Assembly: GCF_030065885.1 (NCBI RefSeq)
Contig: NZ_JASJCS010000022.1
Coordinates: 1 to 33,708 of the forward strand
Reading direction: 5' to 3'
DNA from: Ilumatobacter sp.
GTDB taxonomy: Bacteria > Actinomycetota > Acidimicrobiia > Acidimicrobiales > Ilumatobacteraceae
DNA length: 33,708 nucleotides
Made by a program: the position numbers and the translations under genes. The notes beneath the pieces are model-generated. The model was given only the letters and a program-made list of their open reading frames with translations, had not been told where the DNA came from and made no database searches. This document shows, piece after piece, positions 15,888 through 33,708 of the stretch (position 1 is the stretch's first letter; the number at the start of each line of letters is the position of its first letter).

Positions 15888-16517
15888 TCAGGCGAGTCCG
15901 AGCTCGCCGGCTCTCGCCGTCACCGCGTCCGACTCCGCGCCGATCGTCGTCGACTCGCCGTGGCCGGTGTGCACCACAGTCTCGGGCGGCAGCGTCAGCA
16001 GGGTCGAGATGATCGACCGCAGGATCGTCGGCTCGTCGCTGTAGCTGCGCCCGGTCGCGCCGGGGCCGCCGCAGAACAGCGTGTCCCCGGAGAACACGGT
16101 GTCCGAGCCGGCGTCGTGGAAGCAGCAGCACCCGGGGGAGTGCCCCGGCGTGTGCAGCACGCGGAGCTCGTGCCCGGCGACCGAGATCGCCTCGCCGGGA
16201 GTCAGGTCGCCGTCGGGTGCCTCGCCGGGCCACACGACGTCCCAGAGCATCCGGTCGTCGGGGTGGATCAGGACGGGTGCATCGACCGCGTCACGGAGCG
16301 GCACGGCAGCGTTGATGTGGTCGTTGTGGCCGTGCGTCAGGACGATCGCACGGACTCGCCGGCCGCCGACACCCTCGACGATCGGCTCGTGGTCGTGAGC
16401 GGCGTCGAAGACGATCACCTCGCGGTCGTCGCCGACCAGCCAGATGTTGTTGGTGACCTCCCACTCGCCGCCGTCGAGGGCGAAGATGCCGTCGGTCGTG
16501 ATCAGCTCGACGGGCAC
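15888..16517 (-). CDS. MBL-fold hydrolase linked to mycothiol-dependent dehydrogenase
   Basis: Predicted 209 aa, glyoxalase II-like metallo-beta-lactamase fold. Zinc ligands are seen in HGHNDH (residues 62-67), HTPGHSPG, FSGDTLFCGG and HTGHGES. The GTG start lies 4 nt after the mscR stop, so the two are translated together. In actinobacteria the same pair is common, and the hydrolase is thought to hydrolyse the S-formylmycothiol made by the dehydrogenase. That pairing is known from other genomes; the substrate here is inferred. Confidence 0.87.
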   Translation of the reverse strand: MPVELITTDGIFALDGGEWEVTNNIWLVGDDREVIVFDAAHDHEPIVEGVGGRRVRAIVLTHGHNDHINAAVPLRDAVDAPVLIHPDDRMLWDVVWPGEAPDGDLTPGEAISVAGHELRVLHTPGHSPGCCCFHDAGSDTVFSGDTLFCGGPGATGRSYSDEPTILRSIISTLLTLPPETVVHTGHGESTTIGAESDAVTARAGELGLA

Positions 16518-16521
16518 GACG

Positions 16522-17607
16522 TCACATCACCACGACGCTGCGGAGCACCTCGCCGCGCTCCATCTTGTGGAACGCCTCCTCCACGTCGTCGATCGAGATC
16601 GTCTCGGACACGAACCGGTCGAGATCGAGGCGGCCCTGCTGGTACAGATCGATCAGCATCGGGAAGTCACGGCTCGGCAGGCAGTCGCCGTACCACGACG
16701 ACTTCAGTGCCCCGCCGCGCCCGAACACCTCGATGAACGGCAGCTCGATCGTGTGGTCCGGGTGCGGCACGCCGACGAGCACCACCGTGCCGGCCAGGTC
16801 GCGGGCTTCGAACGCCTGCTTGTACACCTCGGGATTGCCGACCGCCTCGATGCACACGTCCGCGCCGTTGCCGTCGGTGACCGACTTGACGTACTCGACC
16901 GCGTCGTTGTCGTTGGCGTTGCAGGTGTGGGTGGCCCCGAACTCCTTCGCCCACTCGAGCTTCTGGTCGTCGATGTCCACCGCGACGATCCTCGACGCGC
17001 CGGCCAGGCTCGCGCCGGCGATCGCCGCGTCGCCGACACCGCCGCAGCCGAACACGGCGACCGAGTCGCCGCGGGTCACGTCGCCAGTGTTGATCGCCGC
17101 GCCGATGCCGGCCATGACGCCGCAACCGAGGAGGCCGGCCGCCGTCGCCGGTGCGGCGGGGTCGACCTTGGTGCACTGGCCTGCGTGCACGAGCGTCTTC
17201 TCGATGAACGCGCCGATGCCCAGTGCCGGGGACAGCTCGGTGCCGTCGGCGAGCGTCATCTTCTGTTCGGCGTTGAACGTCGAGAAGCAGTACCAGGGCT
17301 TGCCCTTCAGGCACGAGCGGCACGACCCGCACACCGCTCGCCAGTTGAGGATGACGTAGTCGCCGGGTGCGACATCCGTGACGCCCTCGCCGACCGATTC
17401 GACGACGCCGGCCGCCTCGTGGCCGAGCAGGAACGGGAACTCGTCGTTGATCCCGCCCTCGCGGTAGTGCAGGTCGGTGTGGCACACCCCGCACGCCTGG
17501 ATCGCGACGATCGCCTCGCCGGGCCCTGGGTCGGGCACGACCACTGTCTCGATGCTGACCGGTTCGCCCTTGGCTCGGGCGACGACTCCACGTACTTCTT
17601 GCGGCAT
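16522..17607 (-). CDS. mscR: S-(hydroxymethyl)mycothiol dehydrogenase / S-nitrosomycothiol reductase
   Basis: Predicted 361 aa from ATG 17607; an upstream in-frame ATG would add 53 residues unlike the family. It is a zinc-dependent medium-chain alcohol dehydrogenase. Catalytic zinc ligands are in CGVCHTD (C39) and GHEAAG (H63). The structural zinc has four cysteines, C93, C96, C99 and C107. The Rossmann motif is [15 protein letters not shown]. The enzyme oxidises the formaldehyde-mycothiol adduct with NAD and can reduce S-nitrosomycothiol. It implies that this organism makes mycothiol. Overall phrasing ([24 protein letters not shown]) fits the mycothiol subgroup. Confidence 0.9.
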
Positions 17608-17614
17608 GGCCGAG

Positions 17615-17620
17615 AACGTA
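17615..17620 (-). promoter_or_regulatory. Putative -10 box of leaderless mscR
   Basis: TACGTT on the minus strand ends 7 nt before ATG 17607. Confidence 0.5.
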
Positions 17621-17737
17621 GCCCATCGCTGCCATACCGCTTCCGTCCGCGCGATCGCCGCGACTTTCGACGGCTCGGGCGCGTCGTACATCTGTCGCCG
17701 TTCCGCCCGGAGCGGCGCGACCACATCGGAGGAACGC

Positions 17738-17983
17738 ATGCTCGCAGTCGAATGGGCCCGACGCATCGAACATGGCGGGGGCTTCGCCGCCTTCGATCAG
17801 CTCGAAGTCGCGAGCGATACCGTTGTCACCTTGTTCCAGACGTTGACGTACAGCCCGGGCCTGATCCTGGTGATCATGTTCGGCGTCGGCGGTTTCTGGG
17901 CCGCACGCGATCGATGCTGGCCGGGTGTGTACGACAGCGTGTCGACGAGTCGGTCACGGTCCGCTGCGAGCGACGAGGACTGA
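17738..17983 (+). CDS. Small single-span membrane protein next to the ECF sigma operon
   Basis: Predicted 81 aa. A strong ribosome-binding site (GGAGGAA, 17728-17734) precedes the ATG. There is one hydrophobic segment ([18 protein letters not shown], about residues 39-56) flanked by an acidic N-terminal part and a basic-then-acidic tail. It matches no family I recognise. It ends 8 nt before the likely GTG start of the ECF sigma factor, so it is probably the first gene of that operon. It might be a membrane sensor or anchor for the system; that is inference only. Confidence 0.65.
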
Positions 17984-17991
17984 CACGACTC

Positions 17992-18546
17992 GTGCAGCGA
18001 GCGGGGCACACGCCAGTCGCAGGCACGGGTACGGCCGCGTCCGCACACGGGCCGGAGGCCTCGCTCGCTGCACTCATCGACGACCACTCGGCCGCCGTGT
18101 ACCGGCTGGCGAGATCTGTCGTTCGTGACTCGTCACTGGCCGACGACGTCACGCAGGACACCTTCATCAAGGTGTGGAAGCACCTCGACGAGTTCCGTGG
18201 CGACGGCTCGATCCGTGGATGGATCCTGCGGATCGCACATCGCGAGGCGATCTCGGCGCTGCGACGCCGGCGCGACCAGGCCACCGACCCCGACGACCTC
18301 GATCTGCCGGTCGACCGTGCGCCGGTCAGCCGGGTGGTCGAGGGCCGGATGGCCTACGAGCGCTTCACCGATGCTCTCGATTCGCTCGACGAGCTGTCGC
18401 GTTCGATCCTGGTGCTCCGCGAGGTCGAGGGTCTGCCCTACGACGAGATCGCCGAGGCGCTCGACGTCCCCGTACCCACCGTCAAGACGCGGCTCCTTCG
18501 GGCGCGGCGACGAATGTCGACACTGCTGGAAGGATGGCGGCCATGA
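17992..18546 (+). CDS. ECF (sigma-70 family) RNA polymerase sigma factor
   Basis: Predicted 184 aa from GTG 17992, the only good in-frame start after the preceding gene. Region 2 is seen in LIDDHSAAVYRLARSVV, DVTQDTFIKVWKHL and IRGWILRIAHREAISALRR. Region 4 is LDELSRSILVLREVEGLPYDE, followed by the helix-turn-helix ALDVPVPTVKTRLLRARRR. The gene overlaps the next (ATGA), which encodes a zinc-finger anti-sigma factor, the classical ECF pair. No ECF-type autoregulatory promoter (GGAAC / CGTC-like with correct spacing) was convincingly found upstream. Confidence 0.9.
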   Translation: MQRAGHTPVAGTGTAASAHGPEASLAALIDDHSAAVYRLARSVVRDSSLADDVTQDTFIKVWKHLDEFRGDGSIRGWILRIAHREAISALRRRRDQATDPDDLDLPVDRAPVSRVVEGRMAYERFTDALDSLDELSRSILVLREVEGLPYDEIAEALDVPVPTVKTRLLRARRRMSTLLEGWRP

Positions 18547-26633: not shown

Positions 26634-27404
26634 TCACCCCCAGAGCGCTCGAAGCACCGGATCGGCCAGTTCGGGTCGGCAGATGATCAGGTCCGGTAAC
26701 CATGGGTCAGGATCGTTGTACACGATCGGCGTGCCGTCGATGCGACTCACGTGGAGCCCTGCCGCCAGCGCGACCGCGGCCGGGGCTGCCGAGTCCCACT
26801 GGTACATGCCGCCGTCGTGCACGTAGATGTCGGCTTCGCCGAGCACGACGGCCATGGCCTTGGCGCCGGCCGACCCGAGGCGCACGGCGTCGCACTCGAG
26901 CGCGTTCGCCACCAGCACGGCCGCGTACGGTGCTCGGAAGCGCGACGTGATGATCCGCGGTCGGGTTCGGCTCGCCGGTGGGAGCTCGGGCGGTGGCTCG
27001 GTGCCGAGCACGACGTCGAGCGCCGGGAGCGCGACCGCACCCGCGGCCAGCCGGTCGTGGTCCCACAGCGCGACGTGCACCGCCCAGTCGTGACGACCCG
27101 CCTCGCCGTACTCGCGGGTGCCGTCGAGCGGATCGATGATCCAGACCCGGTCGGTGGAGAAGCGGCGAGGGTCCTCGGCGCCTTCCTCGTCGAGCACGGC
27201 GTCGTCGGGCCGGTGGCGGCGGAGTTGCTCGCCGATGAAGTGGTGGCCGGCGGCATCGCCGTGGTCCATCACGTCCCAGGAGCGCGCGCCCGACTGCCAC
27301 AGCTGCTCGCGAAGCTCGACCAGTTGCTCGCCCGCCTCGCGTGCGAGGCGCACGGCGAGCTGCGGGTCGCTCTCTGGCTCGGGTCGGGGATCGGGTTCGG
27401 GCAC
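26634..27404 (-). CDS. cysQ: CysQ-like inositol monophosphatase-family phosphatase
   Basis: Predicted 256 aa from GTG 27404; an in-frame GTG at 27428 would add 8 residues but covers the putative -10 box. The metal-dependent phosphatase motifs are LDEEGAEDP, WIIDPLDGTREYGE and the C-terminal YQWDSAAPAAVAL. The phrase VMDHGDAAGHHFI replaces the K-x-D segment of inositol phosphatases, as in mycobacterial CysQ, which hydrolyses 3'-phosphoadenosine 5'-phosphate in sulfate assimilation. The substrate is inferred by resemblance. It is divergent from dinB, 74 bp away. Confidence 0.83.
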   Translation of the reverse strand: MPEPDPRPEPESDPQLAVRLAREAGEQLVELREQLWQSGARSWDVMDHGDAAGHHFIGEQLRRHRPDDAVLDEEGAEDPRRFSTDRVWIIDPLDGTREYGEAGRHDWAVHVALWDHDRLAAGAVALPALDVVLGTEPPPELPPASRTRPRIITSRFRAPYAAVLVANALECDAVRLGSAGAKAMAVVLGEADIYVHDGGMYQWDSAAPAAVALAAGLHVSRIDGTPIVYNDPDPWLPDLIICRPELADPVLRALWG

Positions 27405-27412
27405 GGACGACC

Positions 27413-27418
27413 AGTATG
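27413..27418 (-). promoter_or_regulatory. Putative -10 box of leaderless cysQ
   Basis: CATACT on the minus strand ends 8 nt before the GTG at 27404, the same spacing as for other GTG-start genes here. Confidence 0.4.
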
Positions 27419-27464
27419 ACGGACCCACCGGTCCGGGCAGCTGGACACGGGGCGGCGCCGTCTG

Positions 27465-27478
27465 CGAACATGTGTTCG
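27465..27478 (+). promoter_or_regulatory. LexA-binding SOS box abutting dinB
   Basis: CGAACATGTGTTCG agrees at every position with the Gram-positive LexA box CGAACRNRYGTTCG. It ends at the base before ATG 27479 and overlaps the likely -10 (GAACAT, 27466-27471). LexA bound here would block transcription of dinB. Confidence 0.88.
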
Positions 27479-28690
27479 ATGAGTTGGATTCGCGCGTCGG
27501 GGCGGGCCACGATCCTGCACGCAGACCTGGACTCCTTCTACGCGTCCGTCGAACAACGCGACCACCCCAACCTCCGGGGCCGGCCGGTCATCGTGGGTGG
27601 AGGTGTCGTGCTCGCTGCGAGCTATGAGGCCAAGCGGCGCGGCGTGTACACACCGATGCCCGAGTTCCAGGCCCGCCGGCTGTGTCCGGACGTGGTCGTC
27701 GTCCCGGCCCGCTTCGACGCGTACTCCGAGGCCAGCAAGGAGGTGTTCGCCCTGTTCGACGACACGACCCCACTGGTCGAAGGGTTGTCGATCGACGAGG
27801 CGTTCCTCGACGTCGGTGGGCTGGGTCGCATCAGCGGCACGCCCGAGGCGATCGGCCGCCGGCTGCGAGCGCAGGTGCTCGAGCACGTCGGTCTGCCCAT
27901 CACCGTCGGCGTCGCTCGTACGAAGTTCCTCGCCAAGGTGGCCAGCGGCGTCGCCAAGCCCGACGGCCTCCTCGTCGTCGAGCCCGAGCACGAGCTCGAG
28001 TTCCTGCACCCCCTGCCGGTGGGCAAGCTGTGGGGCGTCGGCCCGGTCACCGAGCGAAAGCTCCACGAGCGTGGGATCAGGACCGTCGGCGAGGTCGCCC
28101 AGCTCGGTCAGCAGCATCTCGTCGCGATGCTCGGCGTCGCGTCCGGCCGACACCTCTTCGCCCTCGCGCACAACCGCGACCCACGTCCGGTCGAGACCGG
28201 TCGGCGGCGAGGCTCGATCGGCTCGCAGCAGGCGCTCGGGCGGGGCCGCAAGCCGTTCGACACCATCGAGGCGTTGCTGCTCGGCATCGTCGACCGCGTC
28301 ACGCGCCGCATGCGCAACGCGGGGCGCGCCGGACGTACCGTCACGATCCGGATGCGATTCGACGACTTCACGCGGGCCACCCGGAGCCGCTCGCTCCAGC
28401 ACCCGACCGCCGCCACCGAACCCATCCGCGATGTCGCCCTCGCCGTGCTGCGCGACGCCGCGGTGATGATCGCCGAGCGAGGGCTGACCTTGATCGGCCT
28501 GTCGGTCGGCAACCTCGAGAACCTCGACGAGACGTATGAGCAGCTGCTGTTGCCGTACGGTCGCAAGGATCGATCCCAGCTCGACGGCGTGGTCGACGAT
28601 CTGCGCGAACGGTTCGGTCACGGCGCGCTCACGCGCGCATCGCTCCTCGGCAAACGCACGGGGCTCCAGGTGCCGATGCTGCCCGATTGA
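27479..28690 (+). CDS. dinB: DNA polymerase IV (Y-family, translesion)
   Basis: Predicted 403 aa from ATG 27479; ATG 27470 is in frame but lies inside the LexA box. Y-family polymerase for bypass of DNA damage. The palm active site is ILHADLDSFYASVE (D16) and SIDEAFLDV (D106, E107); fingers carry ASYEAKRRGVYTPM. The thumb helix-hairpin-helix is LPVGKLWGVGPVTERKL, followed by the little-finger domain. QLLLPYG (residues 355-361) looks like a sliding-clamp-binding peptide. With its SOS box and the clamp motif, this is a damage-inducible bypass polymerase. Confidence 0.94.
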   Translation: MSWIRASGRATILHADLDSFYASVEQRDHPNLRGRPVIVGGGVVLAASYEAKRRGVYTPMPEFQARRLCPDVVVVPARFDAYSEASKEVFALFDDTTPLVEGLSIDEAFLDVGGLGRISGTPEAIGRRLRAQVLEHVGLPITVGVARTKFLAKVASGVAKPDGLLVVEPEHELEFLHPLPVGKLWGVGPVTERKLHERGIRTVGEVAQLGQQHLVAMLGVASGRHLFALAHNRDPRPVETGRRRGSIGSQQALGRGRKPFDTIEALLLGIVDRVTRRMRNAGRAGRTVTIRMRFDDFTRATRSRSLQHPTAATEPIRDVALAVLRDAAVMIAERGLTLIGLSVGNLENLDETYEQLLLPYGRKDRSQLDGVVDDLRERFGHGALTRASLLGKRTGLQVPMLPD

Positions 28691-31594: not shown

Positions 31595-32154
31595 TCAGGC
31601 TGCGGCCTGCCGGACGGCCGCGACGAGCTCGTCGACGCTCGGGCGATCGTCGGGGCCCTCACCCCAGAATCCGTATGCCAGCCTGCCGTCGGGTGCGACG
31701 ACGAAGTCACCTCCCAGCTGGAGTGGATCCTCGGTCGGCCGGTGGAGTCCGGCGATGCCCTCGGCGCGGATGATCTCCCAGTACCGATGCGCAGCCTTGG
31801 CACCCCACACGCGCCACACCGAACCGCGGCCGAGGCCGAACGCCCGATACGCATCGCGATCGGCGTCGACCAGCACCGGGAACGGGAGGTGGCGCTCGGC
31901 GCCGTAGGCGGCCGCGGCCGCGAGCCCGGTGAAGGTGACGAGCGCCACCTCGGTGTCGCCGAAGTCGTCGAGCCGGTCGCGGACCGCAACGGCGTGTGCC
32001 GCGCACGGCAGTCAATGGATGTGGCGGTGGAAGATCAGCACGACGGTGGAACCGAGCTGGTCGGCGAGCCGCCAGCGTTGTCCGGTGGCGCCGGCGAGCT
32101 CGATGTCGGGCGCCGGCTCGCCGACCGCCGGGCGCGCCAGCGAGCGGCCATGCG

Positions 32155-32158
<4 letters not shown>
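31595..32158 (-). CDS. Peroxiredoxin-like (AhpC/TSA) selenoprotein candidate with in-frame UGA
   Basis: Reading from ATG 32158, the frame gives 187 residues if the TGA at 32014-32012 is read through. Codon 49 is TGA, flanked by VVLIFHRHIH and LPCAAH. So the site is U49-L-P-C52, at the place where thioredoxin-fold AhpC/TSA-like proteins have their redox-active CxxC cysteine. The same frame then continues through VALVTFTGLAAAAAYGAE, FPVLVDADRDAYRAFGLG and GDFVVAPDGRLAYGFWG, a complete peroxiredoxin-like fold. A SECIS-compatible hairpin follows the UGA. The ATG overlaps the ettA stop (ATGA). The alternative is a nonsense mutation, but it would have had to hit exactly this codon without further decay. 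Confidence 0.82.
31972..31993 (-). promoter_or_regulatory. Candidate bacterial SECIS hairpin
   Basis: On the minus strand, 19-40 nt after the UGA, GCC-GTTGCG pairs with CGCGAC-C-GGC (9 pairs including one GU, one bulged C). The apical loop is GUC, with G first, 28 nt after the UGA. Published bacterial SECIS rules ask for a 4-16 bp stem, a 3-14 nt loop with G among the first two bases, and a 16-37 nt distance. All are met. GC-rich DNA makes hairpins easily, so this is supportive only. Confidence 0.55.

Positions 32159-33708
<1,550 letters not shown>

Follow-up and report, generated by a model that had tools for sequence, protein, structure and literature searches.

Introduction

A marine survey calls the eukaryotic SelL a peroxiredoxin (Prx)-like selenoprotein and cites work by Shchedrina et al. 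(2007) on a diselenide redox motif (PMC2398784). The active site of SelL has a UxxU pair of selenocysteine (Sec) residues. A Prx-like thiol:disulfide oxidoreductase is tabulated as PF00578 with the motifs UxxC/UxxU in a further paper (PMC13188914). For actinobacteria, a third source puts in print CUA anticodons in Geodermatophilaceae as well as an AhpC selenoprotein of Blastococcus saxobsidens with a UAG Sec codon (PMC5330540). Two curated NCBIfam models are of relevance here, the SelL-related redox protein NF040769 and the HUIPC motif, thioredoxin-like selenoprotein NF047660.

Here we describe a gene in a 33,708-nucleotide stretch of DNA from Ilumatobacter sp. (contig NZ_JASJCS010000022.1), referred to in its whole length as the window. 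The encoded protein passes the curated cut-off of NF040769. It has a UxxC motif where eukaryotic SelL has UxxU, a comparison made by motif, and none of the 128 loci in which the column was read has UxxU at the active site, which sets them apart from SelL proper. Both its Pfam domain and its Sec motif agree with the PF00578 entry as far as the tabulated description goes. The UxPC motif is common to the window protein and NF047660, yet the protein scores 14.9 bits against that model's cut-off of 105 and is not a member. The B. saxobsidens protein resembles a Modestobacter relative presented below in being of the actinobacterial AhpC type, with Sec at UAG, in Geodermatophilaceae; this likeness is one of published description, and the protein may represent another AhpC branch. 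Our literature search, which left most subscription papers outside its reach, returned nothing on a selenoprotein in Ilumatobacter, and its matches to Acidimicrobi were off-subject by title.

Results

A single reading frame interrupted by UGA

On the minus strand one frame extends from ATG 32158 to 31598, followed by the stop codon TGA 31597-31595, and its sole interruption is the TGA at codon 49, surrounded by the residues FHRHIH-U-LPCAAH (Table 1). The initial annotation had described exactly this frame, broken just by the TGA in HRHIH-TGA-LPC, and had argued against a frameshift; both statements hold, as homologues are colinear and in frame on both flanks of the codon. We put the probability that this is a genuine selenoprotein gene, with Sec predicted at codon 49, at roughly 97%, a confidence that derives mainly from conservation of the codon, the presence of the Sec machinery, and a UAG/CUA pair of codon and anticodon in one relative.

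Table 1. Features of the selenoprotein locus in the window
Feature	Position	Strand	Basis
Selenoprotein CDS, 187 aa, Sec predicted at residue 49	31598..32158	(-)	NF040769 score; homologues colinear on both sides of TGA
UGA codon 49, read as Sec (HRHIH-U-LPC)	32012..32014	(-)	128 loci: TGA 123, TGC 4, TAG 1
Codon 52, Cys, UxxC partner	32003..32005	(-)	invariant in 23 aligned members
Candidate SECIS hairpin (bacterial type), 19-40 nt past UGA, loop GUC	31972..31993	(-)	-12.0 kcal/mol as 26-nt piece; place kept in relatives
Upstream ABC transporter-type ATPase gene (ABC-F-like)	32155..33672	(-)	PF00005 twice, PF12848

The stop codon of the ATPase gene overlaps the ATG of the selenoprotein gene by four bases (ATGA), and translational coupling of the two genes is therefore possible. 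Neighbours of the ABC type and the universal-stress type were not found at the other 127 loci (within flanking sequence of up to about 3 kb), and for this reason we do not claim an operon. Elsewhere in the window, positions 16444-18546 (+) hold a 700-aa frame (mechanical start) with sigma-70 regions 2 and 4 at residues 544-691, near its C-terminal end, and no Pfam match at E <= 1e-5 in the rest of the frame; a Y-family DNA polymerase frame (IMS domains) lies at 27341-28690 (+).

The Sec column in relatives

A scan of 200 genomes of the taxonomic family (E <= 1e-15) yielded 28 matches in 27 genomes, the window included. In every one of the 28 the HRHxxULPC motif has TGA at the Sec position; five contain a further TGA within the span, at its C-terminal end. 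The gene is patchily distributed, with 27/200 genomes of the family and 3/10 genomes of the genus carrying strong matches. The class sample (E <= 1e-20; 27 matches in 27/395 genomes) gave 23 Sec and 4 Cys forms, five of the Sec forms repeating family loci. The named-genome scan gave 80 loci, the motif being readable in 78 (L176 and L178 stop short of it), with 77 TGA and one TAG. Pooling these sets, with the window included and the five repeats removed, led to the column of 128 loci summarized in Table 1. The pooled loci are not independent in that some named and unnamed ones represent one organism (in the tree, L137, a homologue of Ilumatobacter nonamiensis YM16-303 that shares the window's motif, is identical in sequence to L058); with identical downstream stretches removed, 96 TGA, four Cys, and one TAG forms are left. 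A phylum sample (E <= 1e-20; 31 matches in 30/396 genomes), from which two repeats and one match without a locus were left out, added 28 further loci, 27 with TGA and one with Cys. The nearest named relatives of the window gene, in the named-genome scan and in the tree, are Acidimicrobiia and Ilumatobacter records. No phage record matched the selenoprotein, and among plasmid records there were two weak matches of 28.9% identity.

Alignment of homologues had been proposed initially as a check on the Sec reading, and in the 128 loci column 49 is TGA, a Cys codon, or TAG with a matching anticodon, and nothing else. The same TGA turns up in many genomes assembled independently of one another, which rules out a local error of sequencing.

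Selenocysteine machinery and linked changes

Contig C161, the window, belongs to a 5.04-Mb genome in 200 contigs (90.7% complete, 5.06% contaminated). The genome search suggested along with the original reading recovered the whole set of Sec genes, all four above their cut-offs: a tRNA-Sec (66.6 bits; gathering score 47) with anticodon TCA according to ARAGORN, selA (402 bits) adjoining selB (277 bits) on contig C12, and selD (377 bits) in a Sec form with one in-frame TGA in HGAG-U-ACK. Within the window itself ARAGORN found no tRNA, and there was no Rfam match at gathering score.

Other candidate Sec codons were noted on the way. The selD gene (L045, G000:C37), by virtue of its TGA in HGAG-U-ACK, probably encodes a second selenoprotein of this genome. 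Three Prx-like frames of the same genus (L017, L022, and L032, in G007, G008, and G005, respectively) have TGA in PKAATPG-U-TVEGQ and are candidate TxxU-type Sec peroxiredoxins. A redox-like frame of a further genome of the genus (L025, G006:C87, minus strand) has TGA in RSAVW-U-PPC and is a candidate UxxC selenoprotein.

The relative in Modestobacter sp. DSM 44400 (L170) has TAG at the Sec column (L170 3091-3093). The tRNA-Sec of this organism (L182 1501-1596; 66.9 bits), labelled tRNA-Pyl by ARAGORN, has anticodon CTA, in contrast to TCA in the tRNA-Sec of three comparison genomes. In the Modestobacter lineage, the Sec codon and the predicted anticodon of tRNA-Sec have thus changed together.

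Among 22 genomes of the class, tRNA-Sec was present in 17/18 carriers of the Sec form and in 1/4 carriers of the Cys form (Fisher p 0.010, kinship ignored). The one Sec-form genome without tRNA-Sec is 68% complete. The three Cys-form genomes without a detectable tRNA-Sec are 95, 88, and 74% complete and include two of one genus, while Cys-form genome G475 has the tRNA. Within the taxonomic family, tRNA-Sec occurs in 23/27 gene-bearing and 112/173 other genomes (p 0.045, hand count), an association that weakly backs the Sec reading; the four of 27 gene-bearing genomes without it are drafts of 69-92% completeness.

A candidate SECIS hairpin

The initial annotation had placed a hairpin satisfying bacterial SECIS rules 19-40 nt downstream of the UGA. 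Such a hairpin can indeed form at +19 to +40. It consists of 9 bp with one bulged C and a GUC loop, lies 27 nt from UGA to loop, and has a folding energy of -12.0 kcal/mol. As a 26-nt piece it fits the bSECIS rules as printed in PMC13188914, namely a loop of 3-9 nt with G in the first two places, at most -7.5 kcal/mol, a stem of 4-16 bp, and a spacing of 16-37 nt; 7/200 dinucleotide shuffles of this piece fold equally well. The claim stands less well for a longer piece, as the 51 nt from the UGA prefer a different best fold (-22.6 kcal/mol; equalled by 39/200 shuffles), and the perfect-stem version of the rules is failed owing to the bulge.

Plain minimum free energy z-scores were weak in this G+C-rich DNA, and we therefore adopted tests of fixed hairpins against synonymous shuffles; the folding energy of the 48 nt after TGA in 96 Sec sequences was hardly under that of the shuffles (mean z -0.40). 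The HRH branch, in the same place as the window hairpin, has an 8-pair stem and a 5-nt loop, mostly CGUGC (39/70) or CGUGA (20/70). Its paired fraction was 0.805 compared with 0.652 in synonymous shuffles, none of which (0/500) reached 0.805. The four Cys forms showed no pairing excess at this position (0.531 vs 0.564 shuffled). The RHR branch (14 sequences) and the RHFG/RYYG branch (11 sequences) have hairpins of their own, with paired fractions of 0.988 vs 0.801 and 0.833 vs 0.530 shuffled, respectively, both hairpins having been chosen post hoc.

Pairs were counted in an alignment of 64 of the 70 distinct HRH-branch sequences; L084, L085, L131, L133, L134, and L162 were omitted by eye as divergent, an omission that favours structure. 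In these 64 rows 84.6% of the cells were paired (shuffled mean 79.1; 0/500 equal), and 44 cells were changed on both sides, as against a shuffled mean of 16.8 (0/500) and 0 to 16 for slid structures. Neither the number of pairs with both-side change (4; 155/500 shuffles) nor that of further pair types (11; 113/500 shuffles) was unusual in the same rows, and pairs 22-42 and 24-40 were unpaired in 27 and 24 of them, respectively. Rule-meeting hairpins with a perfect stem were found in 54/96 Sec forms, compared with 18% of synonymous shuffles, the window's own being absent from this group; they occurred in 0/4 Cys forms and in the single TAG form (1/1).

When the test was corrected for the choice of hairpin, with sets thinned to 25/97, 10/14, and 7/12, the stretch after TGA was significant in all three branches (0/300 each); the strongest hairpin of the RHFG branch then differed from the one chosen post hoc. 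Control windows responded as well: in the HRH branch the 48 nt preceding TGA (maximum z 5.9; 0/300) and the next downstream stretch (z 3.9; 4/300), and in the RHR branch one downstream stretch (z 4.2; 1/300), with none of the remaining control windows below 18/300. The enrichment test is thus not specific. A SECIS element is likely here, and the RNA evidence by itself would not carry the case, which rests on codon and anticodon.

Protein family and fold

The window protein scored 126.8 bits against NF040769 (cut-off 120; residues 15-181) and was above the cut-off of each of the Pfam models AhpC-TSA, AhpC-TSA_2, and Redoxin. Eight relatives scored between 82.8 and 140 bits against NF040769, some over partial spans, and three of them exceeded the cut-off; in a separate scan L010 reached 136.8 bits. 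The other five of the eight, all with Sec in the column, stayed under it (118.7, 107.1, 92.5, 88.6, and 82.8 bits, some partial), so the model may cover the branch of the window protein only in part. SelU was absent from the matches of the protein in the NCBIfam scan. The label "SelU-related" given initially is replaced by SelL-related, although AhpC-TSA_2 is above its Pfam cut-off. The window gene is an actinobacterial member of an already named, SelL-related family.

Columns invariant in 23 aligned members include H44, R45, H46, residue 49, L50, P51, C52, and H55. A structure model with Cys replacing Sec (mean pLDDT 91.7) has a Prx/ResA-like fold, in which residue 49 sits immediately before a helix. 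Bcp (Bcp4), AhpC2, AhpE, and ResA were among its 50 best PDB matches (TM by query 0.60-0.73), and a profile search of PDB sequences likewise retrieved Bcp-type peroxiredoxins and ResA. In the Prx motif PxxxTxxC/U, as given in PMC13188914, a Thr stands at position -3 of the attacking residue; the window protein has His46 there, invariant in 23 rows. It is thus not a classical peroxiredoxin despite its fold. The original description as a peroxiredoxin-like protein with UxxC redox chemistry was right as to the chemistry, and is narrowed here to a non-classical, SelL-related protein.

Evolution of the Sec column

The 124-row tree places the four Cys rows among Sec rows, where they require three changes; the root is a midpoint root, and L094 sits on a long branch. 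This topology suggests that Sec would be ancestral in the SelL-related branch. Two loci labelled Acidobacteriota (L164 and L177, isolate REEB343) group with good support inside the otherwise actinobacterial RHR branch, and either contamination of the bin or gene transfer would explain their placement. The genus also has weaker matches that no stop interrupts; of those inspected, L018 reads HDCVPC. The dominance of Sec holds for the nearer relatives only.

Discussion

A plain reading would truncate the gene at 48 codons, although it is whole and encodes a conserved redox enzyme. That the TGA might be a nonsense mutation or a base-call error in a Cys gene has some initial appeal, given that a single base change converts TGC or TGT to TGA and that the assembly is a draft of 200 contigs. 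Such an accident is highly improbable with the same TGA in 28/28 family matches (27 genomes) and 123/128 loci and with in-frame homology on both flanks, and it would leave the TAG of Modestobacter with its matching tRNA-Sec anticodon unexplained. Hardly more credible is the idea that UGA terminates translation or encodes another residue, with translation of the downstream part starting anew at the GTG of a 117-aa frame. A frame of this kind does exist on the minus strand (31595-31948), yet alone it would be devoid of the UxxC site; moreover, the residue in the column is Cys wherever the codon is not a stop (4/4), and the codon changes together with the anticodon of tRNA-Sec. The gene is not a broken one, and insertion of Sec at codon 49 is the reading we adopt.

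With regard to function, a role in thiol-disulfide exchange is somewhat favoured. The UxxC pair resembles that of ResA and thioredoxins, and the Thr of peroxiredoxins at -3 is replaced by an invariant His, which is why we regard the protein as more probably a thiol-disulfide oxidoreductase, or else a peroxidase of non-classical type, than a standard peroxiredoxin. A selenoprotein that is a true peroxidase, in which peroxides are the direct substrate of Sec49 and Cys52 is the resolving residue, seems doubtful to us. Its appeal lies in Pfam AhpC-TSA and Redoxin scores above cut-off and in Bcp, AhpC2, and AhpE being among the best fold matches, but the Thr of PxxxTxxU (PMC13188914) is an invariant His here, and the UxxC pair together with the ResA matches points to disulfide exchange.

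Based on the parts present in the genome and on the comparative evidence we propose that SelB, carrying Sec-tRNA(Sec, UCA), binds a hairpin directly past codon 49, and that Sec would then be inserted at this codon in place of termination. Sec49 may act as the attacking residue and be resolved by Cys52 as a selenenyl-sulfide, which in turn might be reduced by a thioredoxin- or mycothiol-type system.

According to the marine survey mentioned above, Cys members far outnumbered Sec members in most selenoprotein families (PMC2398784), in contrast to the nearer relatives of the SelL-related protein (E <= 1e-20), which are rich in Sec. It is an evenly balanced proposition that in Actinomycetota the SelL-related branch is nearly all-Sec, with Sec as the rule and probably the original state. 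The few Cys forms would then have arisen by later loss of Sec, mostly accompanied by loss of tRNA-Sec, and one line of descent would have retained Sec as its codon switched from UGA to UAG. If true, such a branch would reverse the usual prevalence of Cys over Sec, and its chemistry would need selenium. The locus indicates that selenoproteins are used in Acidimicrobiia-type actinobacteria. Because nearly all nearer relatives sampled keep Sec, one lineage even through a change of codon, the family is suited to asking why some active sites fail to revert to cysteine.
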